41,086 bases of DNA, from NCBI GenBank assembly GCA_029269725.1, contig JARJHS010000003.1, forward strand, positions 175,110-216,195, in the 5' to 3' direction. Shown here piece by piece: positions 1 to 39,859 of this stretch. The DNA is from Pollutibacter soli. Its GTDB lineage: Bacteria > Bacteroidota > Bacteroidia > Chitinophagales > Chitinophagaceae. The translations under genes were made by a program, and so were the position numbers. Below the pieces are notes generated by a model. It was not told the DNA's origin. It did no database searches and was given only the letters and a program-made list of their open reading frames with translations. Position 1 is the stretch's first letter; the number at the start of each line of letters is the position of its first letter.

Positions 1-104
1 TCGTTGTTCGTTGTTCGTTGTTCGTTGTTCGTTGTTCGTTGTTCGTTGTTCGTTGTTCGTTGTTCGTTGTTCGTTGTTCGTTGTTCGTTGTTCGTTGTTC
101 GTTG
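1..104. repeat. Perfect heptanucleotide tandem array (TCGTTGT)n
   Basis: About 15 uninterrupted copies of the 7-bp unit TCGTTGT; the array continues beyond the left edge, so its full length is unknown. Seven is not a multiple of three, so the apparent open frame through it encodes a meaningless 7-residue periodic peptide. It belongs to the heptad family described at 3066, 9287, 25731 and elsewhere, and is the most homogeneous member. Confidence 0.95.
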
Positions 105-156
105 ATTGCAGATCGTAGAGACGCGATGCATCGCGTCTCTACGATCTGCAATCAAC
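101..156. repeat. Perfect 56-bp palindrome abutting the heptad array
   Basis: The two 28-bp arms are exact reverse complements with no spacer; the centre lies between 128 and 129. The last four bases of the heptad array form the outer end of the left arm. The core GTAGAGACGCG..CGCGTCTCTAC resembles small palindromic intergenic repeats known from cyanobacteria and other bacteria. It would form a cruciform, or a long RNA hairpin if transcribed. It lies about 100 bp beyond the bestrophin stop codon. Confidence 0.95.
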
Positions 157-256
157 ATAGGGCATTTTCCGTTTCGCTTTATTCTGTATTCCCTTTTTCC
201 TGTTTTCGGTTTTCAGTTCCAGTTTTCCTCCTGCATTCTGTATTCTCCTATTCTAC
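157..256. other. Pyrimidine-rich spacer with loose 7-bp periodicity
   Basis: This T/C-rich stretch lies between the palindrome and the stop of the bestrophin gene. CTGTATTC occurs twice and TTTTC recurs with roughly 7-bp spacing, suggesting a degraded heptad array. I see no gene in it. It would be the 3' untranslated region of the leftward bestrophin transcript. Confidence 0.5.
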
Positions 257-1258
257 TTACATCAAAATACTATTCACCGGCTGTATGGGTGGCGGCAATT
301 CTGTTTCCCCCAGCATTTCACGCAGATCGATCTCAATGGTACGACTCATAGAAGTAATTGGAACATCGTTTGCACCGCCTTCAAAAGGATTTTCGGTAGC
401 CTGTCCTACTCTCTCCAGTGTTGTAAATACCCAGGAAACAATTATACTGAAAGGTACTGCCATCCAGATCATTTTTTCGCCATGTTTACTGAACTCATTC
501 AGCATTCCTAACGGCAACATAAACACGAAAAGACGGATAAAGAACCTGCTGATGGTAGAAAACTGACGGGGATATGGAAAGTTCTTGATTCGCTCACAAC
601 GGCCCTGGTGATCGTACAATTCTTTCAACACACTTTCAAGTTGAGTATACCTGAATTCTGAAACACTTCCTGCATCTGATAGTGCACGCAGCTGCGCTGA
701 CTGCATACTGATAATCTGCGCAGCTTTGTTTTTCCTGGCCATGATGAAATCTCTTTCCACTTTGGAAACGAAATTTAAAAGCACATCGGCCATTTCAGTC
801 TCTTCTTCTTCCACTCTATAATTCCTGCGATAATCTTTGAATGCACCTATATCATGGTTCTCCCAGGTTTTCTTTTCGCGCAGCTGAAACCTTAAGGCAG
901 TAAGCCATGCAATATGGCGATAGATCATCTGATGATGAATTTCCCGATCAGTAAGCGGATTATCTGTACTGATAAAATCCCTCGCCATAATTCCCCAGGT
1001 GCGACTGCTGTTGACAATACTGCCCCATATCTGTCTTGCCTCCCATAAACGATTATAAGTGGCATTATTTCTAAAGCCGGCGATAAATGCGGCTGCCGTA
1101 CCCAACATGGTAATCGGGACCCACGGAATAGCAAGCCAATGCCATCCTGCAAAAACATATAAAGCTGTAGGAACAACGGCAAGGATTACCAGTCCGAGTA
1201 TATCCCGCTTGGTCCATGCCAGGAACTCTCCAAGCCTGTAAGATTTACCTGCATGCAT
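257..1258 (-). CDS. Bestrophin-family anion channel (RFP-TM/UPF0187)
   Basis: 333 aa, the usual length for bacterial bestrophins, which form pentameric anion or cation channels in the inner membrane. Two hydrophobic helices lie at about 20-37 and 41-61, followed by the family signature GFRNNATYNRLWEAR at 61-75. A long amphipathic region follows (about 105-220), then RCERIKNFPYPRQF at 220-233, two more helices at about 238-253 and 263-281, and the ENPFEG motif at 289-294. The start is an ATG, with no Shine-Dalgarno sequence, as usual in Bacteroidota. It is the last of five leftward genes, 73 bp after the methyltransferase. Family assignment is firm; ion selectivity cannot be read from the sequence. 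Confidence 0.9.
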   Translation of the reverse strand: MHAGKSYRLGEFLAWTKRDILGLVILAVVPTALYVFAGWHWLAIPWVPITMLGTAAAFIAGFRNNATYNRLWEARQIWGSIVNSSRTWGIMARDFISTDNPLTDREIHHQMIYRHIAWLTALRFQLREKKTWENHDIGAFKDYRRNYRVEEEETEMADVLLNFVSKVERDFIMARKNKAAQIISMQSAQLRALSDAGSVSEFRYTQLESVLKELYDHQGRCERIKNFPYPRQFSTISRFFIRLFVFMLPLGMLNEFSKHGEKMIWMAVPFSIIVSWVFTTLERVGQATENPFEGGANDVPITSMSRTIEIDLREMLGETELPPPIQPVNSILM

Positions 1259-1331
1259 ATTGAATACAGTTAGTTCAGATTCTGTGAAAATATCAACAAA
1301 AAACTAAAATGCAGCGATCGGGAAACATACA

Positions 1332-1908: not shown

Positions 1909-2505
1909 TTATTTTCCAGACCTGCCCTTCTTTTTTTGGATAGCTTTCAAAGTGCTTTTATCTATCGCCTTGACTTTTGTTTTACCGGGTTTTGCCTTTA
2001 TACTTTCAACTTTCAACTTCGAACTTTTAACTTCCGGCTTTCGACTGGTGGCTTTTGACTTCTGACTTTTGCCAACAGACTTCTGATTCCCCATCTTATT
2101 CGGCTGTTCCCTATTGCCTCCTGGATTCTTACTATTGCCTCGCTGTTGATGCCCGACTGCTATCCCAGCTTCTGTTTTCGCCTTCGCTGTCATTTTTGAA
2201 ACAACAAGCCCGTAAGATTTTGCAAGATGATTTTTCAATTGTGTTGCAGGCAATCCTTTCATGTTTTTATGCAACACCCAATGACTTTTTGCAAGATATG
2301 GAGCCGGAACAAAACCATCCTGGTGGATGAGTTCATCAAATTCAACAGGGTCGGTTTTGAAACCGATAGTCACTGGAACTGCATCAAGACTGATCATGCA
2401 AAAGATTTTTTCCCCTGCCATCAGGCAAAGATTGTCGCCCCATTTGATATCCTCGCGAATACCAGGAAAAGACTTGCAGAATTTTTGTATATCTTCAATT
2501 TCCAT
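1909..2505 (-). CDS. MmcQ/YjbR-family protein with repeat-derived lysine-rich tail
   Basis: 198 aa. Residues 1 to about 115 form the MmcQ/YjbR (CyaY-like) fold: an N-terminal FCKSFPGIREDIKWGDNLCLM segment, IGFKTDPVEFDEL in the middle and YLAKSHWVLHKN near the end. The family is often called DNA-binding, but its role is not established. Family members usually end near residue 115-120. Here about 80 extra residues rich in Lys, Ser and Gln follow, much of them encoded by the heptad array at 2003-2086. The tail is therefore probably repeat-derived rather than a conserved domain, although its charge could help nucleic-acid binding. Its start overlaps the end of the GNAT gene by 11 bp, which suggests translational coupling. 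Confidence 0.8.
   Translation of the reverse strand: MEIEDIQKFCKSFPGIREDIKWGDNLCLMAGEKIFCMISLDAVPVTIGFKTDPVEFDELIHQDGFVPAPYLAKSHWVLHKNMKGLPATQLKNHLAKSYGLVVSKMTAKAKTEAGIAVGHQQRGNSKNPGGNREQPNKMGNQKSVGKSQKSKATSRKPEVKSSKLKVESIKAKPGKTKVKAIDKSTLKAIQKKKGRSGK
2003..2086. repeat. Twelve-unit mosaic heptad array inside a coding region
   Basis: On the + strand the units read CTTTCAA, CTTTCAA, CTTCGAA, CTTTTAA, CTTCCGG, CTTTCGA, CTGGTGG, CTTTTGA, CTTCTGA, CTTTTGC, CAACAGA, CTTCTGA. Eleven of the twelve begin with CT while the remaining bases vary, and the phase is exact for 84 bp. Read on the minus strand it is translated as the Lys/Ser-rich tail of the MmcQ/YjbR protein. Looser 7-bp periodicity may continue to about 2165. 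Confidence 0.9.
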
Positions 2506-3065: not shown

Positions 3066-3090
3066 TTGTTCGTTGTTCGTTGTTCGTTGT
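3066..3090. repeat. Short TTGTTCG heptad array at the M28 stop codon
   Basis: About three and a half units of TTGTTCG, the same unit as the array at position 1. It begins two bases beyond the M28 peptidase stop codon (3092-3094) in the sense of transcription and fills the gap to the GNAT gene. Confidence 0.85.
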
Positions 3091-3091: not shown

Positions 3092-5329
3092 TTATTTCAG
3101 AACAGCATTTGCTTTCTCAATTTCTGCAGTAAATGCTTCGATCACTCCAGACAACAACCCGATTTGTTCCTGCGCTTCAGCCCAGTTTTTTTCTTCGATC
3201 GCTTCACGAACGCCCGGCAATGTTTTAACACCATAACCTGTAAAATAACCAGGCGCGTAAATCAGATGTCTGTACCACGGCCGGCGCGGAAGTCCTTTGT
3301 CCAGCAACAAACTCTTTTCAGCCTGGAAAAGAATATTATTCAATTCATTTCTTTTTGCTTCCGGTAGTTGTTCCGCTTTTGCAGATAACTTCTTATAACT
3401 GTCTGCTGCTGTTTTAAACTGTACCATTGCATTATCCAATCTGCTGAAATTGAAAAAAGGAACCTTCGCGGAAACTTCTGCAGCTACATAAGGTTCTTTC
3501 GGATCCCGGGCCAGGTCATATAATTTTTCCGCTGCCATGGCTATATCATGCTCCGCATCAATACGTATATTGTCTGCAAGCGTTTTTACTTCGCCGACAT
3601 AACCATTGATAGTCGAATACAAAGTTGTAAAATCAGCAGGAATAATATCTGCATTAGCAAGGCGCAAAACCATTCTTCCCGCGGTTGACGCTAACGCTGC
3701 GCCATAGGCGAAACCTGGATCTTTGAAACGTACAAAATGATCATAGCTGTCGTAAATAGAATGATATTCACCACCGGATCCTTCACCACCAAATCCAATA
3801 TTGAAAGAAGGTATTCCCAGGTGCTGAAAGAATGGCGAATAATCTGAGCCGGCACCTAACGCAGAAAGTTTTATTGTTTTATTGCCCATGATTCGGGTGC
3901 GTTTTGCTCTGTCGCCCAAAACCATTTCTACTGCATACCTGCGATCACGAATGCTTACTCCTGTTTGCGGATCCTTTACTACACTAATGATTTCATTAAA
4001 AAAAGGTTCGAACGCATGCGAGCCGCCTCCATGGATAAAACCACGACTGTTTCCATCGGAATTGATATAGGCCACTGCTTTCTTCTGCAATTCAGATGCA
4101 TGATCTTCAACCCATTCCGTGCTACCCAGGAGTGCCTGCTCTTCACCATCCCATCCGCAGAAAATAATTGTACGTTTAGGCTTGAAACCTTGTTTTGCAA
4201 GAATGCCAATTGCTTTTGCTTCACTCATCACAGCCACCATTCCGCTGAGTGGATCAGCAGCTCCGTTTACCCATGCATCATGGTGGTTGCCGCGAATGAT
4301 CCATTCATCCGGTAGCTCAGAACCTTTCAACGTTGCGATCACATTATAAACGGGTTTCAAATCCCAGTTGAAAGCCAGTTTCAAATGAACTTTTGCTACA
4401 CTCGGGCCCATATGGTAAGTTATTGGTAATCCGCCACGCCATTCATCAGGTGCTACCGGGCCTTGCAATGATTCCAGTAAGGGTTTCGCATCTTCCCAGG
4501 AAATCGGCAACACCGGAATCTTCATGATCGTCGGAGATTCGGCAACGGACAGACGTTTCGCATCCGGTGTTGAAGCAAAGCCTGGTGTCGTGGGGTCACC
4601 TGGCGTTACAGGCATATCCATAACAGATCCGCGCTGCGCTCCATCTCCGGGACGATAAGGCCCTTTCGGGTAGGCATCACCGGCACCATATCCATCATCG
4701 AGAGGATCAGAATAAATCAGGCAACCGATAGCACCATGAAAAGCGGCTAGCTTCGGTTTAATTCCGCGCCACGATCCACCATATTTAGCTATCACAATTT
4801 TCCCTTTTACACTGATACCAGCTTTTCTCAAAACTTCATAATCAGCAGGAACTCCGCGATTCACAAATACCAGTTCAGCAGTTACATCGCCATCTGCCGA
4901 ATAAGCATTATATGTCGGTAACTGTTCAGATTTCTGACCGCTGGTGCGATCTTCTTTTAATGTCGACTCTTCAAGTTTTGCAGTGAATTTTTTAGTGCCG
5001 AGCAATTCGAGCAATCTTGTTTTCGGAGTCGGAAATAAAACCTGGTAACTTGACAATTCAGTGTCATATCCCCATTCCCTGAAAAGTTTAGCCATGTAAT
5101 CGGCATTGATCTTATCCTGCGATGAACCAAGATGATGAGGACGTGATGAAAGAAATTCCATCCACACCTGCTGATCTTTGGGACTGATCAGCGAGTCCAT
5201 TGCTTTTTCGAGTTTTATTTCCGTGGACGCGGAAGTCGGATTAAAACCGGAAATTTTTTCCTGTGCGCTGACACTTGCAGGCGCCAGGCCGGATAAAGAA
5301 AATGCAGACAGCAAAATAAGTTTTCTCAT
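3092..5329 (-). CDS. Secreted M28 zinc peptidase (glutamate carboxypeptidase II-like)
   Basis: 745 aa with a signal peptide (residues 1-22, ending SVSAQ). A protease-associated (PA) domain spans about 140-290. The M28 catalytic domain has all expected residues: H349 in NHHDAW, D359 in ADPLSG, catalytic E396 and ligand E397 in WDGEEQ, D425 in INSDG and H523 in EYHSIYD, by comparison with human GCPII H377, D387, E424/E425, D453 and H553. A C-terminal transferrin-receptor-like helical dimerisation domain follows (about 590-745). The order PA, M28, TfR-dimer matches the GCPII group, so a periplasmic or surface carboxypeptidase is likely. The gene stands apart from the Pnt operon by 232 bp. Confidence 0.93.
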   Translation of the reverse strand: MRKLILLSAFSLSGLAPASVSAQEKISGFNPTSASTEIKLEKAMDSLISPKDQQVWMEFLSSRPHHLGSSQDKINADYMAKLFREWGYDTELSSYQVLFPTPKTRLLELLGTKKFTAKLEESTLKEDRTSGQKSEQLPTYNAYSADGDVTAELVFVNRGVPADYEVLRKAGISVKGKIVIAKYGGSWRGIKPKLAAFHGAIGCLIYSDPLDDGYGAGDAYPKGPYRPGDGAQRGSVMDMPVTPGDPTTPGFASTPDAKRLSVAESPTIMKIPVLPISWEDAKPLLESLQGPVAPDEWRGGLPITYHMGPSVAKVHLKLAFNWDLKPVYNVIATLKGSELPDEWIIRGNHHDAWVNGAADPLSGMVAVMSEAKAIGILAKQGFKPKRTIIFCGWDGEEQALLGSTEWVEDHASELQKKAVAYINSDGNSRGFIHGGGSHAFEPFFNEIISVVKDPQTGVSIRDRRYAVEMVLGDRAKRTRIMGNKTIKLSALGAGSDYSPFFQHLGIPSFNIGFGGEGSGGEYHSIYDSYDHFVRFKDPGFAYGAALASTAGRMVLRLANADIIPADFTTLYSTINGYVGEVKTLADNIRIDAEHDIAMAAEKLYDLARDPKEPYVAAEVSAKVPFFNFSRLDNAMVQFKTAADSYKKLSAKAEQLPEAKRNELNNILFQAEKSLLLDKGLPRRPWYRHLIYAPGYFTGYGVKTLPGVREAIEEKNWAEAQEQIGLLSGVIEAFTAEIEKANAVLK

Positions 5330-8488: not shown

Positions 8489-9286
8489 TCAGTAACGGAT
8501 TACGAAATGCTGCTTTTCCTTAAAATCCGGATTAAAAAATACCAGTCCTATAAAAAAAAGATCAATAGTACAGGTAACCGATGGAAAGCCTTTTATCTCT
8601 TCCCAGGCTTTTTCCATTCCTTCACTCCAGTGTATATCATCAAAAATAAAAATTGATTTTTCACTAAGATGGTCCAAAGCCTGGTTGAAATAATGCATTG
8701 TTGGCTGGTATCGATGGTTACCGTCAAAAAATACCAGCCCAGGATGACCTGCAGTTTTTAATGCTTCCGAAAATGTATCATCAAAATTACCCGTAATTAT
8801 CTTAACGTTTTCTAATCCCAGCGCAGCCATATTTTTCCTGGCTACATCGGCAATGCGCGGAGCGCCTTCCAGACTGATTACATTTGACTTCTGCGATGCG
8901 CTGGCAAGATATGCCGTGGTAATTCCCAATGAAGTACCGAGCTCAACAACCGGTGTACTGTTATAATACCTTACAATTTTAAAAAGTAGCTGCGCATATT
9001 TTTTCGGCTTAGCAGCGAGTCTCGCGATCTCCGCAATTTTCCGCTTTTTTTTTGTTCCATTGACTGAACCCGCACCGAAATCGTCTACTTCAATAATTTC
9101 ATTGGAAAGCAACAACTTTTTACGCAAAGATTCTATCGAACTGAACTCCGCATATTCACGCTTATCATTTAACAACTTTACAATGAAATTGTAAACAAAA
9201 GGAGAATGCGTTCCATGACCTTTCCCGTTGGAAGCACTAAGCCAATACCTGATATACTTTAAAGCGATAATAAAGGGAGGGTGCAT
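8489..9286 (-). CDS. Class I SAM-dependent methyltransferase (O-methyltransferase-like)
   Basis: 265 aa. Motif I is VVELGTSLGITTAYLASASQ at about residue 115-134, followed by ISLEGAP (acidic residue at the end of beta-2), LVFFDGNHRY and FIFDDIHWSEGM, the pattern of cation-dependent O-methyltransferase-like proteins (Methyltransf_24 type). An N-terminal helical segment with HGTHSPFVYNFI is typical of the Bacteroidota version. The substrate is unknown. The ATG is separated from the folA stop by 28 bp made entirely of a heptad array, so the two may be co-transcribed. Confidence 0.82.
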   Translation of the reverse strand: MHPPFIIALKYIRYWLSASNGKGHGTHSPFVYNFIVKLLNDKREYAEFSSIESLRKKLLLSNEIIEVDDFGAGSVNGTKKKRKIAEIARLAAKPKKYAQLLFKIVRYYNSTPVVELGTSLGITTAYLASASQKSNVISLEGAPRIADVARKNMAALGLENVKIITGNFDDTFSEALKTAGHPGLVFFDGNHRYQPTMHYFNQALDHLSEKSIFIFDDIHWSEGMEKAWEEIKGFPSVTCTIDLFFIGLVFFNPDFKEKQHFVIRY

Positions 9287-9335
9287 GTTTACGTTTTACG
9301 TTGAACGTTATACGTTAAACGACCAAGGTTGAACG
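9287..9335. repeat. NNNNACG heptad array spanning the folA stop codon
   Basis: Seven in-phase units: GTTTACG, TTTTACG, TTGAACG, TTATACG, TTAAACG, ACCAAGG, TTGAACG. Six of the seven end in ACG. The TTA inside TTAAACG is the folA stop codon read on the minus strand, and the two distal units encode the last residues of DHFR. Confidence 0.92.
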
Positions 9336-9830
9336 TTCCCAGGTTTCGAAACTATAATCGTATGCGTGTTTATCATCCTTATAGCAGTCGATTCTGGATT
9401 TGAGAGACCATTCTTTTTCAATAAACCCTTCGAAATGAGCATCGGCATCTGGGAACTTTGCATGAACACGTGTGAGATAGATTTTATCAGCTAACGGTAA
9501 GGCCTGCGTGTAAATTTCCCCTCCCCCAATTACATATACTTCATTGCAATTCGTTTCACGTGACCTTATTAATGCGGACTCTAATGTATTTGCCACCCAG
9601 ACTCCCGGCCGGTTAGCCTGCCAGTCGCGTTGACGTGTCACCACAATATTAAATCTTCCCGGAAGTGGTTCTCCGGCAAGCGCTTCAAAAGTTTTACGAC
9701 CCATGATCACGGGCATCCCCCAGGTCGTGTTTTTAAAGAAACGCATATCATTCGGCAGATGCCAGAGCAATTGGTTATTCTTGCCAATGGCATTGTCTTC
9801 GGATGCAGCTAATACTAAAGAAACAATCAT
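9315..9830 (-). CDS. folA: Dihydrofolate reductase
   Basis: 171 aa, normal for bacterial DHFR. The N-terminal IVSLVLAASEDNAIGKNNQLLW, catalytic acid D28 in LPNDMRFFK, the GMPVIMGRKTFE NADPH-binding strand-loop, IVVTRQ and VYVIGGGEIYTQAL are all present. It reduces dihydrofolate to tetrahydrofolate with NADPH and pairs with the thymidylate synthase upstream. The natural C-terminus seems to end near FETWER; the last residues (STLVV) and the stop codon are encoded by the heptad array. The ATG at 9830 follows a TAnnTTTG motif by about 20 bp. Confidence 0.97.
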   Translation of the reverse strand: MIVSLVLAASEDNAIGKNNQLLWHLPNDMRFFKNTTWGMPVIMGRKTFEALAGEPLPGRFNIVVTRQRDWQANRPGVWVANTLESALIRSRETNCNEVYVIGGGEIYTQALPLADKIYLTRVHAKFPDADAHFEGFIEKEWSLKSRIDCYKDDKHAYDYSFETWERSTLVV

Positions 9831-16545: not shown

Positions 16546-17802
16546 ATGGCTGATATTTTTGAAAGATTACTAAAGAACTATGGTCCGATCGGACAGCACC
16601 GTCGTGCCGCACATGGATATTTTGCTTTCCCCAAACTGGAAGGCCCCATCGGAAGCCGGATGCTGTTCCGTGGCAAAGAAAAAATTGTCTGGAGTCTTAA
16701 TAATTACCTTGGCCTGGCTAATCATCCTGAAGTGAGAAAAGCCGATGCCGAGGCTGCCGAAAAATTCGGCCTCGCATTACCCATGGGCGCCCGGATGATG
16801 AGCGGAAACTCCAATTACCACGAACAACTCGAACGCGAGCTGGCTGCATTCGAAATGAAAGAGGATGCTATCCTGTTGAATTTCGGTTACCAGGGCATGG
16901 TGAGCCTGATCGATGTTCTTTGTAATCGTCATGATGTAATCGTTTATGATGCGGAAAGTCATGCGTGTATTATCGACGGCTTGCGCATGCATCCAGGCCA
17001 TCGTTATGTTTTTAAACATAATGATGTTGAGGATTTTGAAAAACAGCTTCAACGCGCGACTACGCTGATCGAGAGACAGCAGAGCGGCGGTATCCTGGTG
17101 ATTACTGAAGGCGTTTTCGGAATGGCAGGAGATCAGGGTAAACTGAAAGAGATCTGCGCTTTAAAAGAAAAATATACTTTCCGTTTATTGGTGGATGATG
17201 CACACGGTTTTGGAACTCTTGGCAAAACAGGAGCCGGTGCCGGAGAAGCGCAGGGTGTACAGGACGAAATTGATTTGTATTTCTCCACGTTCGCTAAGTC
17301 AATGGCCTCTATCGGGGCATTTGTTGCGGGACCAAAAGATATCATCGATTATATCAGGTATAATATCCGAAGCCAGATTTTTGCGAAATCATTGCCTATG
17401 CCATTGGTACTGGGCAATCTGAAAAGACTGGACCTGCTCCGTACACAGCCTTCCCTCAAAGACAAACTTTGGGAAAATGCTACCAAGCTTCAACAGGGTT
17501 TAAGGGAAAAAGGATTTGATATCGGTAAAACCGATTCAGTGGTAACTCCGGTTTATATGAGCGGAGGTGTGGAAGAGGCAACCGTAATGGTTTCAGACCT
17601 GAGAGAGAATTATAACATATTCTGTTCAATAGTTGTATACCCGGTAATTCCGAAAGGACATATCATTTACAGACTGATTCCGACAGCTTCTCATACAGAT
17701 GAAGATATCAGGCTCACGTTAATAGCGTTTGAGGAAACAAAACAGAAACTCGATGCCGGCACCTATAAAAGTGTGGAAATTCCACACATGGCCGAAGTTT
17801 AA
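16546..17802 (+). CDS. Alpha-oxoamine synthase (serine palmitoyltransferase-like)
   Basis: 418 aa PLP enzyme of fold type I. The PLP lysine is K251 in FSTFAKSMASIGAF; H139 in DAESHACIIDGLR stacks on the cofactor; D217, D218 and H220 in LVDDAHGFGTLG hold the pyridine ring. NNYLGLANHPEV and GARMMSGNSNYHEQLE are also typical of this family (serine palmitoyltransferase, KBL, AONS, ALAS). In Bacteroidota the likely role is condensing serine with a fatty acyl thioester for sphingolipids; a cysteate-using enzyme of sulfonolipid synthesis is the main alternative. It differs from the shorter SPT of Sphingobacterium at the N-terminus, so it may be a paralogue. A strong terminator follows. Confidence 0.8.
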   Translation: MADIFERLLKNYGPIGQHRRAAHGYFAFPKLEGPIGSRMLFRGKEKIVWSLNNYLGLANHPEVRKADAEAAEKFGLALPMGARMMSGNSNYHEQLERELAAFEMKEDAILLNFGYQGMVSLIDVLCNRHDVIVYDAESHACIIDGLRMHPGHRYVFKHNDVEDFEKQLQRATTLIERQQSGGILVITEGVFGMAGDQGKLKEICALKEKYTFRLLVDDAHGFGTLGKTGAGAGEAQGVQDEIDLYFSTFAKSMASIGAFVAGPKDIIDYIRYNIRSQIFAKSLPMPLVLGNLKRLDLLRTQPSLKDKLWENATKLQQGLREKGFDIGKTDSVVTPVYMSGGVEEATVMVSDLRENYNIFCSIVVYPVIPKGHIIYRLIPTASHTDEDIRLTLIAFEETKQKLDAGTYKSVEIPHMAEV

Positions 17803-17804
17803 GG

Positions 17805-17833
17805 TTGAACGTTAAAAGTGGATACGTTGAACG
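17805..17833. repeat. ACG-core heptad array after the synthase stop codon
   Basis: TTGAACG, TTAAAAG, an 8-bp TGGATACG and TTGAACG follow two bases after the TAA at 17800-17802. The phase slips once by one base. It is continuous with the terminator hairpin. Confidence 0.8.
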
Positions 17834-17834
17834 T

Positions 17835-17877
17835 AAGCGTTTGTGGGTGCTAACAGACATCCCCAAACGCTTTTTTA
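17835..17877 (+). terminator. Rho-independent terminator of the alpha-oxoamine synthase gene
   Basis: AAGCGTTTG (17835-17843) pairs perfectly with CAAACGCTT (17864-17872). The stem extends inward through GGGTG/CATCC-type pairs after one mismatch, and a run of T follows. Clear intrinsic terminator for rightward transcription. Confidence 0.85.
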
Positions 17878-18004
17878 TTTGCAATTGCTTTGTGAAAACG
17901 AAAATTACGAGAGAAAGAAAATGTGGCAGTCGAAACTTTTTTTGTGGTCATTCCTTCTGGCGAAAAGATCAGCGAATCACCTTGACCTGGCCGACTGTTC
18001 ACTG
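17878..18004. other. Gene-free spacer between convergent genes
   Basis: Part of the 330-bp gap between the alpha-oxoamine synthase stop and the thioredoxin-fold stop. Apart from the heptad arrays and the two terminators listed separately, I see nothing in it; open frames here have no protein-like composition. Confidence 0.5.
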
Positions 18005-18031
18005 CTGCCTCCTGCCTCCTGTCTTCTGCCT
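18005..18031. repeat. GC-rich heptad array (CTGCCTC type)
   Basis: Four units in phase: CTGCCTC, CTGCCTC, CTGTCTT, CTGCCTA. The period is the same as in the AT-rich arrays but the words are different. Confidence 0.75.
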
Positions 18032-18066
18032 AAAAAAAAAGAGGCCAGGATAGAAATCCAGCCCCG
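18032..18066 (-). terminator. Terminator for the thioredoxin-fold gene
   Basis: Read leftward, a hairpin of GGCTGGAT against ATCCTGGCC with two internal mismatches and a short loop is followed by nine T (the A run at 18032-18040). It lies about 65 bp beyond the stop codon at 18133. Confidence 0.6.
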
Positions 18067-18132
18067 TTTTAAATCCAATATCCTATGAAAAACCGAATCT
18101 ATAACGGGGGCTGTTAACGTTTTATTGTATTT

Positions 18133-18669
18133 CTATTTCCAAACTGACACAAATTTTTTCTGATAGTCCATAAATGGAGTTTTTCCATAATGTCCGTCAC
18201 CAAAATATTTCACCAGCATCTCCATATCTTTTACTTCAAGATAACCGGGAATTGCTTGTGGTGTACTTCCATCCGGGGGAAGAATGACCGTTGTTGGAAA
18301 TGAAAGCTGACCTTGCGTCAATGCAAGTGCGAAGTCGTTGACGCGGACCTGTGAATTATAATTGAAACTTTTTCCGTTCCAAAGCAAAGTTTCTTTCGTT
18401 TCCGCATCGAGTTTTACCGCATAAAAATTTTCGTTGATATATTTTGCAACCTGTGCGTTGGAATATGTTTTTTTATCCATCACTTTACACCAGCCACACC
18501 AATCGGTATACAAATCGATCAAAATCGGTTTCTTACTGGTTTTTAATTTTGTTTGCGCCTGTTGAAGACTGATCCAATCCAGTTTCACTTTTTCTGCGGA
18601 TGGGTTGTTGAATGAACTGTTCAGCACCACCACCACAATTACCAATATCACATGGGAAAGTTTTTGCAT
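18133..18669 (-). CDS. Exported thioredoxin-fold protein (CGWC)
   Basis: 178 aa. An N-terminal hydrophobic segment (6-20) is a signal peptide or membrane anchor. The redox site is C58-G-W-C61 in LYTDWCGWCKVMDKKTY and the cis-proline is P125 in LSFPTTVIL. The fold resembles the Thioredoxin_7/DsbD-gamma group. It is likely a periplasmic thiol reductase or disulfide carrier. Partners are not encoded nearby. It is divergent from ubiX with only 50 bp between the starts. Confidence 0.85.
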   Translation of the reverse strand: MQKLSHVILVIVVVVLNSSFNNPSAEKVKLDWISLQQAQTKLKTSKKPILIDLYTDWCGWCKVMDKKTYSNAQVAKYINENFYAVKLDAETKETLLWNGKSFNYNSQVRVNDFALALTQGQLSFPTTVILPPDGSTPQAIPGYLEVKDMEMLVKYFGDGHYGKTPFMDYQKKFVSVWK

Positions 18670-18700: not shown

Positions 18701-18728
18701 CAAAATTATAACGAATTTGATGCGCAAA
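18701..18728 (-). promoter_or_regulatory. Promoter of the thioredoxin-fold gene
   Basis: Minus-strand -7 element TAATTTTG (18701-18708), exact TAnnTTTG, with a -33 TTTG at 18725-18728, spacing 16 bp. The -33 part overlaps the first codons of divergent ubiX. The predicted transcript start is about 25 bp upstream of the ATG at 18669. Confidence 0.55.
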
Positions 18729-19280
18729 ATTGTAGTCGCAGTTACCGGTGCGAGCGGGGCAATTTATCCGAAATTACTTCTCGACAAGCTCCAGTTGATT
18801 CAGAATCAATGGAATGAGCTAAACCTGGTAGTTTCTGACAATGCCCGTGAAATCTGGAAACAGGAATTGCCTGAAGCTGATTTTTCGCAATATCCATGGA
18901 AACAGTTTGCCAAAACTGATTTTAACGCCCCTTTTGCTTCCGGATCAGGTCAGTTTGATACGATGATTGTTATTCCCTGCTCGATGGGCACCCTTGCCCG
19001 GATCGCAGGCGGCATCTCCAACGATCTCGTCACCAGGGCGGCAGATGTCATTCTAAAAGAAAGAAGAAGACTGATCTGCGTCATCCGCGAAACCCCTTAC
19101 AGTCTCGTTCATATTAAAAATATGGAAGCAGTGACAATTGCCGGTGGAATTATATGCCCCGCAACACCTTCTTTCTACAGCAAACCTCAGACGCCGGAAG
19201 AAATCGCACAGACGGTTGTTGATCGCGTTATTGATTTGTGCGGATTTCAGCAGGAGACTTTTCGGTGGGGAGAGTTTTAA
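18720..19280 (+). CDS. ubiX: Flavin prenyltransferase UbiX
   Basis: 186 aa from the ATG at 18720; a TTG one codon earlier is open but not needed. RKIVVAVTGASGAIYPKLLL is the FMN-binding N-terminus. VIPCSMGTLARIAGGISNDLVTRAADVILKERR and LVHIKNMEAVTIAGGIICPATPSFY are the conserved UbiX segments for the prenyl phosphate and flavin. It makes prenylated FMN, the cofactor of UbiD-type decarboxylases. No ubiD is in the window. Its TAA stop codon lies within a perfect inverted repeat (19276-19308). Confidence 0.95.
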   Translation: MRKIVVAVTGASGAIYPKLLLDKLQLIQNQWNELNLVVSDNAREIWKQELPEADFSQYPWKQFAKTDFNAPFASGSGQFDTMIVIPCSMGTLARIAGGISNDLVTRAADVILKERRRLICVIRETPYSLVHIKNMEAVTIAGGIICPATPSFYSKPQTPEEIAQTVVDRVIDLCGFQQETFRWGEF

Positions 19281-19308: not shown

Positions 19309-19350
19309 GGCAGTCGTTTGCGGAATTTTAGTGCTTCAAACCTTAAAGAG

Positions 19351-19443: not shown

Positions 19444-19464
19444 GCTTACGTTTCACGTTTAACG
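19444..19464. repeat. ACG-core heptad array at the lolA stop codon
   Basis: GCTTACG, TTTCACG and TTTAACG are in phase. The TTA of the third unit (19459-19461) is the lolA stop codon on the minus strand. Confidence 0.85.
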
Positions 19465-25067: not shown

Positions 25068-25730
25068 ATGCATCCATATCTTTTATCAGCAGAGAATGCA
25101 TTCAGTAAAAAAACAAATCCGGCAAATGCAGCCGCTGCAAAGGCTTATCTGCGCAATCAATTTGATTTTTTTGGGTTGAAAACCGATCTGCGAAGAGAAA
25201 TCACCAAATCTTTATTCAAAAAAGAATTACCAGGTGCAGAAGAAATACCCAATATCCTTAGGCAGGCGTGGGAACACCCGATGCGCGAAATGCAGTATTT
25301 CGCGATCGAGCTCGCAGCCTGTTATAAAAAAGAATGGCCGGAAGAAATGATTGTCCATTTCGAAAAAATGATCCTTGGCAAAAGCTGGTGGGATTCTGTT
25401 GATGCCATCGCGTCCCAGCTTACGGGTCCGTATTTCAAAAGATATCCTGAACAGGTAATTCCGGTTACCTCTGTATGGAACAAATCAGGAGACATCTGGC
25501 TGCAAAGAAGCAGTCTGATTTTTCAGCTGTTGTACAAAAAAGAAACCGACACTACACTGTTGAAAAAATACATTCTGCAACTGAGGAAATCAGATGAATT
25601 TTTTGTCCAGAAAGCCATTGGCTGGGTACTTCGACAATATGCCCGAACCAACCCGGAATGGGTGAAAATGTTTGTTGAGCAAACACAACTACCTGCACTC
25701 AGCAGAAGAGAGGCATTAAAACATTTTTAG
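25068..25730 (+). CDS. AlkD-like DNA alkylation repair glycosylase
   Basis: 220 aa, an all-helical HEAT-repeat protein. The four residues important in Bacillus cereus AlkD are all present: W108 and D112 in KSWWDSVDAIAS, R147 in WLQRSSL and W186 in AIGWVLRQYA. Such enzymes excise positively charged alkylated purines (N3-methyladenine, N7-methylguanine) without flipping the base. It is divergent from the acyl-CoA dehydrogenase operon. Its TAG stop is followed immediately by a heptad array. Confidence 0.92.
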   Translation: MHPYLLSAENAFSKKTNPANAAAAKAYLRNQFDFFGLKTDLRREITKSLFKKELPGAEEIPNILRQAWEHPMREMQYFAIELAACYKKEWPEEMIVHFEKMILGKSWWDSVDAIASQLTGPYFKRYPEQVIPVTSVWNKSGDIWLQRSSLIFQLLYKKETDTTLLKKYILQLRKSDEFFVQKAIGWVLRQYARTNPEWVKMFVEQTQLPALSRREALKHF

Positions 25731-25772
25731 TTGTGCGTTTTTCGTTGATCGTTGAATGTTGTTCGTTTTTGT
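25731..25772. repeat. Heptad array (mostly TCG core) directly after the alkD-like stop
   Basis: TTGTGCG, TTTTTCG, TTGATCG, TTGAATG, TTGTTCG and TTTTTGT follow the TAG codon with no spacer base. It is a mosaic version of the TTGTTCG array at 3066. Confidence 0.85.
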
Positions 25773-25896
25773 CGGATACAGGTTGTGTTGAAGAACCCAA
25801 GTTCAGTTGTTGAATCATAAAAACAGGCCGATCAATGGCATTGAAACCAGCATGATATTTTTAATCAGTAACTTTCTGAAACACAAATTCATCACT

Positions 25897-27261
25897 ATGT
25901 ACCGCCTGCTGATCATCACCTTGATATTTTTAAGCTGCCATATTCAGGCACAGGAATCACTCGTAGATTCAAAAGGGAAAACCATACTGATAAAAAATGT
26001 GAACCTGATCCCGATGGATAAAGAAACAGTGATTGCAGCACAGGATGTACTCGTGCGTGATGGAAAAATTGCAGCCATCGGAAAGACTGGTTCTTTGTCG
26101 GGGACCAATAATGCGTTTGTAGTGGACGGTTCGGGAAAATACCTCATGCCCGGATTAGCAGAAATGCATGCGCATGTACCACCGGAAGACAACATGCCTG
26201 CGATACAGGAAACCGGAATGCTGTTCGCATTGAAAGGTATCACCACGATCCGCGGAATGCTGGGTCACCCCACACATCTCGTTTACAGAGAAAAAATAAA
26301 CTCCGGCGAAATAACCGGACCAAGATTTATTACATCAGGTCCCTCACTCAGCGGAGGCTCTGTGAAAACACCGGAAGAAGCAAGCGCAATGGTACGTGCC
26401 GAAAAACAGGCAGGATATGATTTTCTCAAACTCCATCCGGGACTTACGCCTGAAACTTTTGCAGCGCTGGTGAAAACGGCAAAAGAAGTCAATATTCCCT
26501 TCGCGGGCCACGTATCATATAAAGTTGGTGTTTGGCGCGCTATCGATGCCGGCTATGCGACAATTGACCATATGGATTGGTTTATCGAAAGTCTTGTTCC
26601 GGGCATAGATACTATACCAGAAGCAAGTGTTGGTTTCTTTGGATTGTACGTAGCAGATCGCGTTGATGAAAGCGGAATTCCAAAACTCATTTCAGGACTT
26701 AAATCGAAAAATATCTGGGTGGTACCAACAGAATGTCTTCCACGTCGGTGGTCCTCAACGGTAAGTGCAGATCAATTGAATAATTCTCCGGAAATGATGT
26801 ATATGTCGCAGAAGACAAGAGAGAATTGGGTGAACGCGAAAAAGAATATGCTGCAGAATCCAAAATACAGTGCGGAAATTTCAGCAAAACAAATTGCAAT
26901 ACGTCAGAAGCTGCTTCGCGAGATGTATAAAAACGGAGTAGGTATTTTACTGGGGTCTGATGCCCCGCAGGTTTTTGATGTTCCCGGATTTTCCGCACAC
27001 CAGGAACTCGAATACTATGTGGATGCTGGTTTAACTCCTTACCAGGCCCTCGTAACAGGTACGGTTAATGTTGGCCGTTATCTCAACAGAAATGATATTG
27101 GTACAATAAAAGTCGGATCTGCCGCTGATCTCATCCTTTTGAACTCAAATCCGCTTAAAAATATTAAAGCAACACAGGATATCAAAGGTGTAATGCTATC
27201 GGGAAAATGGATGTCAGAAAAATACATCAGCCAGGAGCTGAAAAAACTGGTTAAAAGCTGA
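25897..27261 (+). CDS. Exported amidohydrolase-family metalloenzyme (imidazolonepropionase/prolidase-like)
   Basis: 454 aa from the ATG at 25897, which begins a good signal peptide (MYRLLIITLIFLSCHIQAQ); an upstream TTG at 25807 adds an implausible 30-residue leader. The metal-binding sites are HAH in LAEMHAHVP, a likely carboxylated lysine in YDFLKLHPGL, histidines in FAGHVSYK and TIDHMDW, and an aspartate in LLGSDAPQ. The C-terminal IGTIKVGSAADLILLNSNPL belongs to the composite beta-sandwich. It probably hydrolyses an amide or peptide bond of a small substrate in the periplasm; substrate unknown. The cysteine in the leader (LSCH) could alternatively be a lipobox. Confidence 0.88.
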   Translation: MYRLLIITLIFLSCHIQAQESLVDSKGKTILIKNVNLIPMDKETVIAAQDVLVRDGKIAAIGKTGSLSGTNNAFVVDGSGKYLMPGLAEMHAHVPPEDNMPAIQETGMLFALKGITTIRGMLGHPTHLVYREKINSGEITGPRFITSGPSLSGGSVKTPEEASAMVRAEKQAGYDFLKLHPGLTPETFAALVKTAKEVNIPFAGHVSYKVGVWRAIDAGYATIDHMDWFIESLVPGIDTIPEASVGFFGLYVADRVDESGIPKLISGLKSKNIWVVPTECLPRRWSSTVSADQLNNSPEMMYMSQKTRENWVNAKKNMLQNPKYSAEISAKQIAIRQKLLREMYKNGVGILLGSDAPQVFDVPGFSAHQELEYYVDAGLTPYQALVTGTVNVGRYLNRNDIGTIKVGSAADLILLNSNPLKNIKATQDIKGVMLSGKWMSEKYISQELKKLVKS

Positions 27262-27298: not shown

Positions 27299-27366
27299 AG
27301 TAAGTAGCAGGTAGTGGGGAGTAAGAAGGAGTGGAAAGTATAAAGTATAAAGCTTTAAGTTGAAGG
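27299..27366. repeat. Ten-unit purine-rich heptad array
   Basis: In-phase units AGTAAGT, AGCAGGT, AGTGGGG, AGTAAGA, AGGAGTG, GAAAGTA, TAAAGTA, TAAAGCT, TTAAGTT, GAAGGTC. Most keep AG or AGT at one position while other bases change. Confidence 0.75.
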
Positions 27367-27485: not shown

Positions 27486-27541
27486 GCCTGCTGCCCGCTG
27501 CCTCCTATCAACTTTGAACTATTGACTGTAAACTCAAAACC
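27486..27541. repeat. Mosaic heptad array switching from GC-rich to AT-rich units
   Basis: GCCTGCT, GCCCGCT, GCCTCCT, ATCAACT, TTGAACT, ATTGACT, GTAAACT, CAAAACC in exact 7-bp phase. Seven units end in CT, and the phase is kept where the composition changes, which links the TGCCT-type and TTGACT-type words as one repeat family. Confidence 0.85.
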
Positions 27542-30957: not shown

Positions 30958-31551
30958 ATGAAAAGAACCGGTTTTCGGGGATCATATGTATCCCCTGGCA
31001 TAGCCTTGCTTTTACTGATCGTTTCCTGTAGTAAAAGTGATAGTCCTTCGACACCCTCAAACCCCTGCGATGGTGTAAACATCACGGTGGAGACAGCAGC
31101 ACAAAATGCTTCCGCGTGTAAATCTGACGGTAAGATAACGGTTACGGCCAGCGGCAGCAGCGGCCTGCAATACAGTATCAACGGTACAACCTTCCAGGCA
31201 TCCAACGTTTTTGATAATGTGGCAGCAGGGAATTATACGGTAACTGTAAAAAACTCAGGCAACTGTTCCAAAACGGCATCTGTTTCTGTAACACAGAGCG
31301 GCGGGACTGCAGGCCCTTTGTTCACAGCAGCTAAATCTGTAATCGGAACGATTTGTGTAACATGTCATGCACCCGGCGGACAACAGCCTACACCCAATTT
31401 TACCATCGATTGTAATATCGTTGCCAATGCAGCCAACATAAAAAGGCGCGCAGTCGATGAAGGTACCATGCCTCCGACAGGTCCGCTTTCACAGGCGGAT
31501 AAAGACAAAATTTCAGCATGGGTGAATGCGGGAGGGAGACTGACTGACTAA
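30958..31551 (+). CDS. Lipoprotein with SprB-like repeat and c-type haem motif
   Basis: 197 aa. A lipobox LIVSC places the lipidated cysteine at C24. Residues about 38-112 resemble a SprB repeat (KITVTASGSSGLQYSING, VAAGNYTVTVKN). A cytochrome-c-like end follows: haem-binding C133-V-T-C-H137, a possible axial M171 in DEGTMPPTG and the closing helix DKDKISAWVNAGG. It is 13 bp downstream of the barrel gene and probably in the same operon. It could be an outer-membrane electron-transfer or haem-sensing subunit, but the substrate and partners are unknown. Its TAA stop lies in a heptad array. Confidence 0.82.
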   Translation: MKRTGFRGSYVSPGIALLLLIVSCSKSDSPSTPSNPCDGVNITVETAAQNASACKSDGKITVTASGSSGLQYSINGTTFQASNVFDNVAAGNYTVTVKNSGNCSKTASVSVTQSGGTAGPLFTAAKSVIGTICVTCHAPGGQQPTPNFTIDCNIVANAANIKRRAVDEGTMPPTGPLSQADKDKISAWVNAGGRLTD

Positions 31552-31567
31552 CGTTCAACGTTGAACG
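31547..31567. repeat. ACG-core heptad array shared by two convergent stop codons
   Basis: ACTAACG, TTCAACG and TTGAACG in phase. It includes an 18-bp perfect palindrome, ACGTTCAACGTTGAACGT (31551-31568). It contains the TAA of the lipoprotein gene and the TGA (minus strand) of the SET gene, and encodes the last residues of the SET protein. Confidence 0.9.
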
Positions 31568-31941
31568 TCAAACCACACCTTCTTTCCATCATTCCAATCC
31601 CCATTATAGTTGATAAAAAGTTCTTCCCCTTTTTTGATATCCCGCATAGTCGTGATAGTTATCGTCTGTTCATCAAAATCCATTTCATATTCGCAATTTG
31701 CCGTGTAGGAATGATTGTAAATGGGAATATATCCTAAAGCCATCGCTGACGATTTTGTTCCGGGATCCCATTCAAATATATAGTCATGTAACAAGGTCTG
31801 ATCGATGACGGAACGATCTTTTTCCGGCAACACGATTACTGGAGAAATCTCAATAACAGTACCCTTATCAATGGGCTCGGTGGTAAAAACACCCCGGCCC
31901 ATTTTTTTTGTTGGCGCAATGATGAGATAAGGCTGAAGCAT
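31555..31941 (-). CDS. SET-domain protein (putative lysine methyltransferase)
   Basis: 128 aa from the ATG at 31941; an upstream TTG at 31965 is unlikely because it overlaps a -7 motif. The SET core is intact: GRGVFTTEPIDKGTVIE at the N-terminus, the NHS motif in IPIYNHSYTANCEYE and the closing EELFINYNGDW. There are no pre- or post-SET cysteine clusters. Bacterial stand-alone SET proteins may methylate ribosomal or DNA-binding proteins; the target here is unknown. The C-terminal residues DVQR are encoded by a heptad array. Confidence 0.88.
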   Translation of the reverse strand: MLQPYLIIAPTKKMGRGVFTTEPIDKGTVIEISPVIVLPEKDRSVIDQTLLHDYIFEWDPGTKSSAMALGYIPIYNHSYTANCEYEMDFDEQTITITTMRDIKKGEELFINYNGDWNDGKKVWFDVQR

Positions 31942-31962
31942 AGTGCCATGTTTTAAAGAAAA

Positions 31963-31970
31963 CAAAATTA
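31963..31970 (-). promoter_or_regulatory. Putative -7 element of the SET gene (TAATTTTG)
   Basis: The minus strand reads TAATTTTG, an exact TAnnTTTG match, 21 bp upstream of the ATG at 31941. It favours that start codon over the TTG at 31965. No -33 partner at normal spacing. Confidence 0.4.
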
Positions 31971-37932: not shown

Positions 37933-37967
37933 TTCAACGAACAACGTACAACGATGAATCAAGAACG
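37933..37967. repeat. ACG-core heptad array in the large gap
   Basis: TTCAACG, AACAACG, TACAACG, ATGAATC and AAGAACG in phase. Unlike the others it is not next to a stop codon. Confidence 0.75.
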
Positions 37968-38213
37968 CAACCAGTTCTCACTGAATCAGCTGTCCCGAAT
38001 TAAATGCAGAGGTTTCCAGGTTCTGCACTTCTGCTTTCATTTGCATTTCTCACCGCTCAAATCTTACGTCAGTTCCGCTATAAAGAAATGCTTCTACCGG
38101 AACATCGGCATAACCTTGCCGTAATATTGATGCATCGGGCTCTTACGAAAGCGAACTATATACTATGTACTAATAACTCCTGCTTACTACTTACTCACAT
38201 CTTCCCTCATGCT

Positions 38214-38241
38214 AAAAAAAAAGCCCCACATTAAGCGGGGC
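38214..38241 (-). terminator. Strong rho-independent terminator for the era-der transcript
   Basis: Read leftward, GCCCC (complement of 38237-38241) and GGGGC (complement of 38223-38227) form a stem with a 9-nt loop that can add an internal C-G pair, followed by nine T. It is about 270 bp beyond the der stop. Confidence 0.85.
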
Positions 38242-38510
38242 CTGGTTTTCTCATGTGCCCAATAAATATCTTACGAATGCAAATGCATTGAATACTTTAC
38301 GCTGAAACGGATGGCAATTGTGTTTTGGTTGATCCGGAAAAATTCCGGGCGTATACTGCAGATCGTTTGCAAGGATGCGGAACCGTCTTCTAAATACTGG
38401 TAATTTTCTCAGGGTACAGGAATACTTATTATGGCAGGCTCCGCGATTATTCGGGAACAAAAATATGGGAATCGTATAACCCGTGCAAAATACGGGACGG
38501 AATTTTGTAC

Positions 38511-39815
38511 CTATTTCTTTCTAAAAAATACCCGGATCGGCACACCTTTAAAATTGAAGTTCGCGCGAAGCTGGTTTTCAAGATAGTTCCTGTAGGGTGT
38601 TTTTATATCATCAGGATAATTACTGAAGAATGCAAAACTGGGAACAACCGTCGGAATCTGTGTGATGTATTTGATCTTTACTGCATTTCCGCGAACAACC
38701 GGTGGATGATAAGATTCGATTGCTTTCAGCATCACTTCATTCAGTTTCGAAGTAGGAATTCTTCGTTGTCTGTTCTCATAAACTTCCAGCGCAACTTCAA
38801 TTACTTTGAAAATTCTTGTTTTTTCAGTTGCTGAAATAAATACAATCGGAACATCAGAAAACGGCGCGATTCTTTCTTTTAATTCACGTTCATAATCACG
38901 CGCTGTATTGGTTTCCTTTTCCACCAGATCCCATTTGTTTACCAGTAGTACAATACCTTTCCCTTTTTTTGACGCAAGGGAGAATATGTTCAGATCCTGC
39001 TGGGTAATTCCTTTTTGTGCGTCGATCAGCATAAGGCAGATATCGGCTTCATCCACAGCTTTAATTGCACGTATTACAGAATAGAACTCCAGGTCCTCAT
39101 CTACTTTTGATTTCCGGCGTATGCCAGCGGTATCGATAAGAATAAAATCTTTCTGGAATAACTGGTATCGTGTGTGAATAGTATCACGTGTAGTGCCCGC
39201 GATATCGCTCACGATGGTACGCTCCGAACCTACCAATGCGTTAAGCAAAGAAGATTTACCAACATTGGGCTGACCAATGATGGCAATCTTTGGAAGATTC
39301 TCTTCTTCCTTTTCCTCTGCTTCCGGAATAAGTTCGGCAACTGCATCCAGCAACTCACCAGTACCACTTCCGGAAATAGCACTCAGGAAAAACACATGTT
39401 CAAATCCAAGGCTGTAAAATTCAGTGGCCTCCAGCTGACGTTGGTGATTATCTACTTTATTTACCACCAGGAACACGGGTTTCGTTGAACGTCGCATTAT
39501 TTCAGCCATGCTGTCGTCAAAAGCTGTGATACCCGTTGCAGCATCTACCATAAAAACAATAGCACTTGCTTCTTCTACTGCAATGAGCACCTGCTTACGA
39601 ATTTCACGTTCGAATACATCTTCGCTATCTGGTACAAACCCACCGGTATCAATCACGTTAAATGTCTTGCCAGCCCATTCACTCTCACCATATTGGCGAT
39701 CCCTTGTCACCCCTGGCGTATCCTGTACAATGGCTTTTCTTTCTTCAATCAACCTGTTGAAAAATGTACTCTTGCCAACATTGGGTCTTCCTACTATCGC
39801 TAATGTAAAACTCAT
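38511..39815 (-). CDS. der: Ribosome-assembly GTPase Der (EngA)
   Basis: 434 aa with two tandem G domains and a C-terminal KH-like domain. The first P-loop is GRPNVGKS at 9-16 with DTPGVTRDRQYG and NKVD; the second is GQPNVGKS near residue 180 with DIAGTTRDTIHTRY, DTAGIRRKSKVDEDLE and NKWD. The KH-like part (about 350-434) includes SYHPPVVRGNAVKIKYITQ and ends KGVPIRVFFRKK. It acts in late 50S subunit maturation and is essential. The gene follows era by 37 bp made entirely of a heptad array; the two form one operon. Confidence 0.98.
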   Translation of the reverse strand: MSFTLAIVGRPNVGKSTFFNRLIEERKAIVQDTPGVTRDRQYGESEWAGKTFNVIDTGGFVPDSEDVFEREIRKQVLIAVEEASAIVFMVDAATGITAFDDSMAEIMRRSTKPVFLVVNKVDNHQRQLEATEFYSLGFEHVFFLSAISGSGTGELLDAVAELIPEAEEKEEENLPKIAIIGQPNVGKSSLLNALVGSERTIVSDIAGTTRDTIHTRYQLFQKDFILIDTAGIRRKSKVDEDLEFYSVIRAIKAVDEADICLMLIDAQKGITQQDLNIFSLASKKGKGIVLLVNKWDLVEKETNTARDYERELKERIAPFSDVPIVFISATEKTRIFKVIEVALEVYENRQRRIPTSKLNEVMLKAIESYHPPVVRGNAVKIKYITQIPTVVPSFAFFSNYPDDIKTPYRNYLENQLRANFNFKGVPIRVFFRKK

Positions 39816-39859
39816 ACGTTATACGTGTTACGTTAAACGTTCAACGCAAGCGCTAAACG
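39812..39859. repeat. ACG-core heptad array filling the era-der gap
   Basis: TCATACG, TTATACG, TGTTACG, TTAAACG, TTCAACG, CAAGCGC then a partial TAAACG in phase. It starts inside the der ATG, contains the era stop codon (39853-39855) and encodes the extra last valine of Era. Confidence 0.9.

Follow-up and report, generated by a model that had tools for sequence, protein, structure and literature searches.

Heptamers are the commonest intergenic periodic repeat of prokaryotes in the SPADE survey, which states that their function is unclear (PMC6344855; this and the other papers cited herein are represented by excerpts). The closest precedent for the arrays described below is provided by the heptads of Xanthomonas, GGGAATC or (GGGANTN)n, and of Nostoc, GGGGA(C/T)T, which are dispersed over 186 and 183 mostly intergenic loci, lie on the coding strand 0-50 bp downstream of a stop codon or overlapping it, are rare between divergent genes and form inverted pairs in 70 and 75 cases. 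Quadruplexes have been proposed for them, and the excerpted text assigns them no known function (PMC4692102). Direct repeats of TAACTGA are found in Beggiatoaceae, cyanobacteria and some Bacteroidetes, with a suggested role in translation (PMC4679880). Here we analyse a stretch of 41,086 nucleotides from Pollutibacter soli (contig JARJHS010000003.1, positions 175,110 to 216,195; hereafter 'the window'), in which arrays of heptads sharing the core ACGTT, or AACGT in the sense direction of the adjoining gene, are dispersed at gene ends, as they are in the genome as a whole. For one protein encoded in the window, the best named hits include Terrimonas, Ferruginibacter, Hydrotalea and Chitinophagaceae MAGs, in keeping with a member of that family.

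The ACGTT family shares placement and design with the Xanthomonas and Nostoc heptads: its units recur every 7 bp and vary at some positions around a fixed core, and its arrays are dispersed, mostly intergenic and located downstream of stop codons on the coding strand, with few between divergent genes and inverted pairs between convergent ones (PMC4692102). What is new is a measured phase lock to the stop codon, a scarcity of intrinsic terminators, and a core that, unlike that of the G-rich heptads, has no G run and forms no quadruplex. Therefore, the family falls outside the G-rich heptads, though it works like them, and quadruplexes cannot be the general cause of heptad arrays. The two systems also differ in that the excerpted report finds most repeats between the same genes in both species (PMC4692102), whereas most of the ACGTT sites that we compared differ. 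Among the literature compared, degenerate heptads at stop codons are described only in the excerpts of PMC4692102, a precedent missed by the initial annotation of the window, which had pointed to heptanucleotide repeats of filamentous cyanobacteria.

Other known repeats resemble the family less closely. The TAACTGA repeats are likewise dispersed, mostly intergenic heptamer direct repeats with a patchy distribution, and Bacteroidetes have some long assemblages of mixed heptamers; however, they consist of a different, single fixed word that in the type genome is located mostly directly upstream of start codons (PMC4679880), whereas the ACGT arrays have another core and lie nearer the stop in codirectional gaps. 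The SPADE heptamers are also tandem, intergenic and of period 7, but neither a gene-end anatomy nor a degenerate core is described for them in the excerpted text (PMC6344855). Neisserial DNA uptake sequences are short dispersed motifs that form inverted pairs at gene ends (PMC2397512) and are reported to show dialects between relatives (PMC3630211), but they lack a 7-bp tandem phase, and their inverted pairs are Rho-independent terminators (PMC2397512). No description of the ACGT family was found in searches of open-licence papers, and a search aimed at repeats in Chitinophaga/Bacteroidetes returned no paper.

The 7-bp periodicity is real. In predicted non-coding gaps of at least 20 bp in the window, leaving aside the gap 1-256 with its perfect array, bases match at lag 7 with a frequency of 0.3035 (z 6.4), whereas 300 dinucleotide shuffles give 0.2619 (standard deviation (sd) 0.0065), and thus the excess for which the initial annotation had proposed a shuffle test is confirmed. 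The values for lags 14 and 21 are z 6.2 and 2.8, and those for lags 5, 6, 8, 9 and 28 range from -2.3 to 1.9. Ten window loci have at least 14 of 21 lag-7 matches; shuffles yield 0.25 such loci, and the remaining lags in the range 4-12 yield 0-1. A 7-bp-phased run is present at all 15 sites that had been annotated, with shuffle p values of at most 0.004 at 14 of them and a weak 0.03 at 17805 (uncorrected, for sites picked by a reader); the list was incomplete, as it omitted runs at 177-218 and 38155-38195. Beyond the window, we sampled 1.64 of the 6.12 Mb of the source genome (G000; 37 contigs) in the form of two 800-kb stretches plus the window. This sample holds 1203 5-mer triples at period 7, compared with 8 at period 8, 58 at period 6 and 10 at period 11. 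Segments scoring at least 12 number 91 at lag 7 in 800 kb, compared with 0-17 at other tried lags that are not multiples of 7, and the whole sample contains 193 arrays at this score. Because the window lies inside a contig, and because a second species (G006; 68-80% DNA identity to the source genome over longer aligned pieces) carries the core pattern, we consider an assembly artefact unlikely, a judgement made on assembled sequence.

Two layers can be distinguished among these arrays. One comprises heptanucleotide arrays of many words, which are of a known kind and sometimes near-perfect (TCGTTGT, CAACTAA and AACGAAC in the source genome). The other is the dominant, degenerate ACGTT family, whose sense unit is approximately [T/A]NAACGT with one base nearly free. 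Its core occurs in 256 pairs at 7-bp spacing in the 1.64 Mb, compared with 0-3 at spacings 5, 6 and 8-13. Genome-wide, the triple ACGTTNNACGTTNNACGTT yields 269 + 321 matches and its backward reading 0; in G006 the exact core pattern has 763 matches and the pattern read backwards has 0. Among 52 stop-proximal ACGTT arrays, neighbouring units agree at 0.78-0.89 in six phases and at 0.57 in one phase, and therefore the fixed core with changing bases reported initially holds good. Phase is also kept where words change, as had been claimed for the array beginning at 27486 and as is seen at C1 411713 of the source genome (TAAGTGG TAAGTTT TGGGTAT AACGTAA AACGTAG).

An obvious source of such arrays is neutral heptanucleotide slippage followed by decay through point mutation, with arrays surviving past stop codons since promoters and coding regions purge them. 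A polymerase-contact idea for heptanucleotide slippage has been put forward (Mrazek et al. 2007, as cited in excerpts of PMC4679880 and PMC4692102). Near-perfect runs and 14-bp alternations in the source genome speak for this process, as do arrays of unrelated words across Bacteroidota and some memory of the free base in the source genome. However, copying should pass the free base on to neighbouring units. In stop-proximal chains of the source genome, neighbours carry an identical free base at a frequency of 0.272, compared with 0.302 expected (lag one, n=162). In G006 they do so in 32 of 167 cases (0.192, compared with 0.251 expected) and at lag three in 4 of 52, counts that may be biased because the G006 sequence was mostly chosen for holding arrays, partly via similarity to arrays of the source genome; its array rate is therefore no base rate. 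When only the 16 chains on contigs chosen by pattern are counted, the figure is 6 of 39 (0.261 expected). Neutral slippage predicts neither a free base that neighbours fail to inherit, as in G006, nor the recurrence of a single core at hundreds of sites in both species.

The placement of the family is equally distinctive. Position counts use arrays that overlap coding sequence over no more than half of their length, which excludes 28 of 191 classified (2 of the 193 lie at sequence edges). Merging yields 94 ACGTT loci, of which 41 lie between convergent, 35 between codirectional and 4 between divergent genes, and 14 are coding. Given that the available gap amounts to 39 kb convergent, 114 kb codirectional and 49 kb divergent, density falls from convergent to codirectional to divergent gaps, and the poverty of divergent gaps is what purging predicts. 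Among the 80 non-coding ACGTT loci, 57.5% lie within 10 bp of a stop codon, compared with 7% of random intergenic positions; for arrays of all families the count is 80 of 144, compared with 34 (sd 4.5) when they are placed at random within those gaps. Where the flanking genes are codirectional, ACGT arrays take the stop side in 18 of 25 cases (p 0.043), whereas non-ACGT arrays are nearer the stop in 22 of 51 and show no stop preference. Because these non-ACGT arrays are no nearer to stops than to starts, and include near-perfect runs, the initial view of all arrays as one system was too broad.

The arrays near stops are polar and locked in phase. Near a single stop, GTANAAC units number 64 sense and 14 antisense (units, not independent arrays). 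When AACGT words at a distance of 1-40 nt from the stop's first base are counted, 162 of 253 in the source genome (1235 predicted genes) and 129 of 194 in G006 (206 genes) fall in two of the seven phases, and therefore the stop codon usually lies within a unit (TGAACGT, TAAACGT, TAACGT), a part of the anatomy that the initial annotation had missed. Convergent gaps longer than 80 bp have arrays on both stops in 17 cases, on one stop in 6 and on none in 101 (Fisher p 2.8e-15). Neutral slippage predicts neither this double occupancy of convergent stops nor the strand polarity.

Another alternative is that the arrays act as an all-frame stop signal, since 7 is 1 modulo 3 and three heptads with a stop word thus close all three frames. 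Arrays that begin 0-30 nt past a stop do contain 123 sense stop words versus 79, with 25 arrays having more and 6 fewer, and in palindromic units past a single stop the free base is G 39 times and C 19 times (p 0.012). However, the excess of G and A is explained by a sense purine bias, and stop-codon enrichment was rejected as a general rule because stop-proximal arrays in 80 other Bacteroidota loci show no enrichment of stop words (0.77 relative to reversed words; 95% interval, 0.56-1.06). Furthermore, a published test reports, in its excerpted form, no selection for fail-safe stops in eubacteria (PMC6764699). We would be very surprised if this were the function of the arrays.

A stop codon in array phase would also result if heptads with the genome's own core were dispersed, or written from a template, onto gene ends, sometimes flanking an inserted stretch, such that the array supplies the stop. 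Consistent with this proposal, arrays extend upstream into coding sequence at 12 of 72 ends in the source genome, G006 has AACGT words inside coding sequence at -5 and -12 (13 each), and each species has fresh sites. A fixed heptad order at five loci of three genomes from two other genera, and a 636-bp stretch of G006 flanked by two different heptamer arrays (both described below), point the same way. Nevertheless, no enzyme was found, the free base would require a degenerate template, and paired arrays lack a shared body; a mobile element with such a body was rejected because the stretches between paired arrays have only short hits in common. The initial annotation had also raised a templated process; we regard this alternative as improbable.

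Intrinsic terminators were scored by a home-made measure (hairpin plus T-run; thresholds 16, 18 and 20 were tried) in gaps limited to 60-420 bp or 60-600 bp, depending on the test. In the source genome (60-600 bp, score at least 18), a terminator follows 0 of 42 ACGT-array ends, compared with 114 of 530 array-free ends (p 1e-4); ends with other arrays have one in 3 of 35 cases (p 0.083). With a looser exact-core definition and score 16, the counts are 3 of 56 compared with 121 of 500 and, when both species are pooled, 3 of 79 compared with 127 of 548. Small samples from other genomes (G034, 0 of 5; G015, 1 of 4; G024, 0 of 1) are too few to inform. Terminator scarcity is another property that neutral slippage does not predict. 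The degenerate ACGTT family, with a single polar and stop-locked core that recurs hundreds of times in each of the two species, a free base almost independent of its neighbours and few accompanying terminators, is not accounted for by slippage alone, as the initial annotation had argued from the changing bases. Neutrality with purging elsewhere is possible, above all for the non-ACGT arrays, but as an account of the whole we consider it unlikely.

Two words are also overrepresented within 40 nt past the ACGT arrays of the source genome in the sense direction, namely GAACCTG at 5 of 72 ends (0.25 expected) and GCCTATG at 4 of 72 (0.09 expected). An origin of these words from the coding sequence of truncated genes was considered and abandoned, as the aligned genes of G006, inspected by eye, terminate at nearly the same position.

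The interpretation we favour, with somewhat less than even confidence, is that the ACGTT family is a constrained gene-end element that stands in for an intrinsic terminator, its core being kept by selection. Heptanucleotide slippage and decay of the ordinary sort seen in many bacteria would supply a background of near-perfect runs and doubled 14-bp units, on top of which the lineage-specific degenerate family would be held at gene ends as a 3'-end element. Selection would preserve the core because the DNA or RNA is contacted at intervals of 7 bases, putatively in the form of a protein array or roadblock, or of a structured RNA end. Such contact may end or trim the transcripts of genes that have no hairpin-plus-U terminator, while the free base would drift and entire sites would turn over.

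The window contains the following arrays and associated features, where ORF denotes an open reading frame and strand is given where assigned.

1-119, near-perfect TCGTTGT array (1-104 perfect, 14.9 copies), of slippage type and not part of the ACGTT layer
1856-1878, AAGTTGA array between two minus-strand genes
1996-2071, minus strand, mosaic CTTNNNA array within predicted ORF 1909-2505, toward its 3' end
3066-3090, minus strand, TTGTTCG array, 1 bp off the stop of minus-strand gene 3092-5329
9288-9321, minus strand, ACGTT-family array that covers the stop of minus-strand gene 9315-9830 and fills the spacer to gene 8489-9286
17805-17837, plus strand, diverged ACGTT-family array directly past the stop of gene 16546-17802; the weakest site (p 0.03)
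17835-17872, plus strand, hairpin then U-run with the shape of an intrinsic terminator (fold 17803-17880: -25.8 kcal/mol, z -3.45)
17994-18031, minus strand, CTGCCTN array, separated by about 100 bp from the end of minus-strand gene 18133-18669 at its stop, with the same words at the aligned place in G006
19276-19308, plus strand, ACGTT-family array that covers the stop (19278-19280) of gene 18717-19280
19444-19465, minus strand, ACGTT-family array that covers the stop of convergent minus-strand gene 19459-20127
25730-25770, plus strand, GTTNNNC array that begins at the stop of gene 25068-25730
27299-27359, plus strand, AGTAAGT-type mosaic array, 37 bp past the stop of gene 25807-27261
27486-27540, mosaic array passing from GCCTGCT to TTGAACT in one phase
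31549-31573, single ACGTT-family array containing the two stops of the convergent pair 30958-31551 and 31555-31965
37935-37953, short CAACGNA array distant from every predicted stop
39812-39846, minus strand, ACGTT-family array about 6 bp past the stop of minus-strand gene 39853-40722 and reaching the start of gene 38511-39815

These sites had initially been characterized as intergenic or located at gene ends, a description that needs mending for the array annotated at 2003, which lies wholly within a predicted ORF, toward its 3' end. The array annotated at 31547 stands, with the added detail that it spans two stops.

The array at 19276-19308 forms a single long hairpin (fold 19271-19315: -18.9 kcal/mol, z -5.55), which raises the possibility that palindromic GTTNAAC heptads fold on themselves and thereby end or protect the transcript without a U-run. 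Also consistent with folding, the free bases of G006 show a mirror complementarity of 32, compared with 27.3 (sd 2.4) when permuted, and the minimum free energy (MFE) differs by -0.47 (standard error 0.18) over 49 arrays of the source genome. This effect is small, however, with MFE lower in 26 of the 49 and higher in 17. The array at 9287-9316 folds no better than shuffles (z -0.59), and sense GTANAAC units have no complementary word. Hairpins between an array and its own downstream partner were rejected because no pair-specific matching was seen, either for the ACGT class (11.5 compared with 11.1 permuted, 58 arrays) or for the other class (9.9 compared with 8.8 permuted, 30 arrays). Self-folding as the general explanation is, in our estimation, highly unlikely. 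The hairpin and the all-frame-stop readings each agree with some of the data, but under general tests they fail or pass only narrowly.

Among relatives, the exact triple occurs in 3 of 41 genomes of the genus and in 39 of 394 of a family sample. Comparison of the junctions of the window with G006, made by eye, reveals that the ACGT family is common to 17802 and 19280/19459. Among matches listed for other genera, different letters surround the same core (ACGTTTS, ACGTT[A/G/T]T) or the units are uniform GTTTAAC. Each of the nine ACGTTTS sites that adjoin a stop has SAAACGT as its sense reading, whereas the three nearest sites of G094 read the opposite way, and therefore polarity may differ by dialect. 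The 28-bp heptad order TCGTGAAACGTCAAACGTGAAACGTGAAA is common to five loci (L352, L362, L372, L353 and L360) in genomes G323, G375 and G386, and resembles a dispersed fixed repeat more than a free mosaic.

Several observations weigh against a constrained gene-end element and should be kept in mind. For five further array junctions of the source genome, comparison by eye shows no ACGT array where the aligned gene of G006 ends; in one of these cases a CTGCCT-type array follows at some distance. Among junctions of the window, 31551 has other words in G006, and 25731 and 27299/27486 have none. Conservation at orthologous ends was thus rejected as proof of function in this comparison. In seven genomes of other genera, where genes were taken as longest ORFs only, just 15 of 44 distinct sites lie within 31 nt of a stop. 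The gene ending at 17802 has array and terminator shape together, a counter-example to their mutual exclusion. G006 alone has terminators at 0 of 23 array ends compared with 6 of 48, which is not significant, and 80 named Bacteroidota loci with other words have them at 3 of 18 compared with 151 of 482 (p 0.30). Beyond +40 nt, the difference in the source genome is borderline (1 of 40 compared with 26 of 186, p 0.056), and therefore part of the terminator scarcity may reflect competition for space. The free base in stop-proximal chains is identical at lag three at a frequency of 0.447, compared with 0.302 (n=38), and looser counts in the source genome also show memory (0.354 compared with 0.269; 10 of 21 at lag two), and therefore some duplication does occur. 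Finally, genes were predicted with a codon-scored, home-made ORF caller rather than a standard annotator.

Further observations concern arrays with other words and specific places in the window. Bacteroidota-wide, arrays with unrelated words number 59 at lag 7, compared with 2-10 at lags 5, 10, 11 and 13 and 33 at lag 8, and those located at stops are rich in purines when read in the sense direction (0.65; n=20 arrays). In 87 kb of G015 (L166-L175) there are 13 lag-8 and 4 lag-7 arrays, the former being mosaic octanucleotides of the AATTNGCG and TCTNNCTC types, and therefore period 7 is not absolute. In G034 (L181, L184), AAGAGAA purine arrays at stops are followed about 70 nt on by complementary TTTCTCT arrays, like the arms of a stem. 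At window positions 31551-31564, 14 bp separate the convergent genes where G006 (L194 2387-3024) has 636 bp, with a GAAGTAC array on one flank and a CTGCCTA array on the other. At 18002-18127, where gene 18133-18669 has its 3' end, a non-coding stretch of 126 bp shares 96% identity with G006, whereas the neighbouring genes share 73-76%. Partial copies occur elsewhere in both genomes, its minus strand folds with z -2.1, and it has no Rfam match; it is possibly a conserved small RNA or an element of a 3' untranslated region. An Rfam scan of the window at gathering scores yielded one transfer RNA (tRNA) and nothing else. Directly past this tRNA gene (40796-40867), a 38-bp unit is present in two tandem copies (94% match) at 40869-40944.

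The question at stake is whether such heptads are a termination signal or a mutational relic, and it is made testable by the stop codon in array phase, the convergent pairing, and the presence of arrays where hairpin terminators are missing. In its most specific form, which we think rather unlikely, the constrained-element interpretation would have the arrays constitute a genus-specific gene-end code, in which polar AACGT-type contacts every 7 bases are read by a putative repeat-binding factor as a signal for transcription end or insulation. This code would replace hairpin terminators chiefly between convergent genes, and the heptads of Xanthomonas and Nostoc would follow the same principle as dialects independent of it. 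If this is true, quadruplexes would not be the common cause of heptad arrays.

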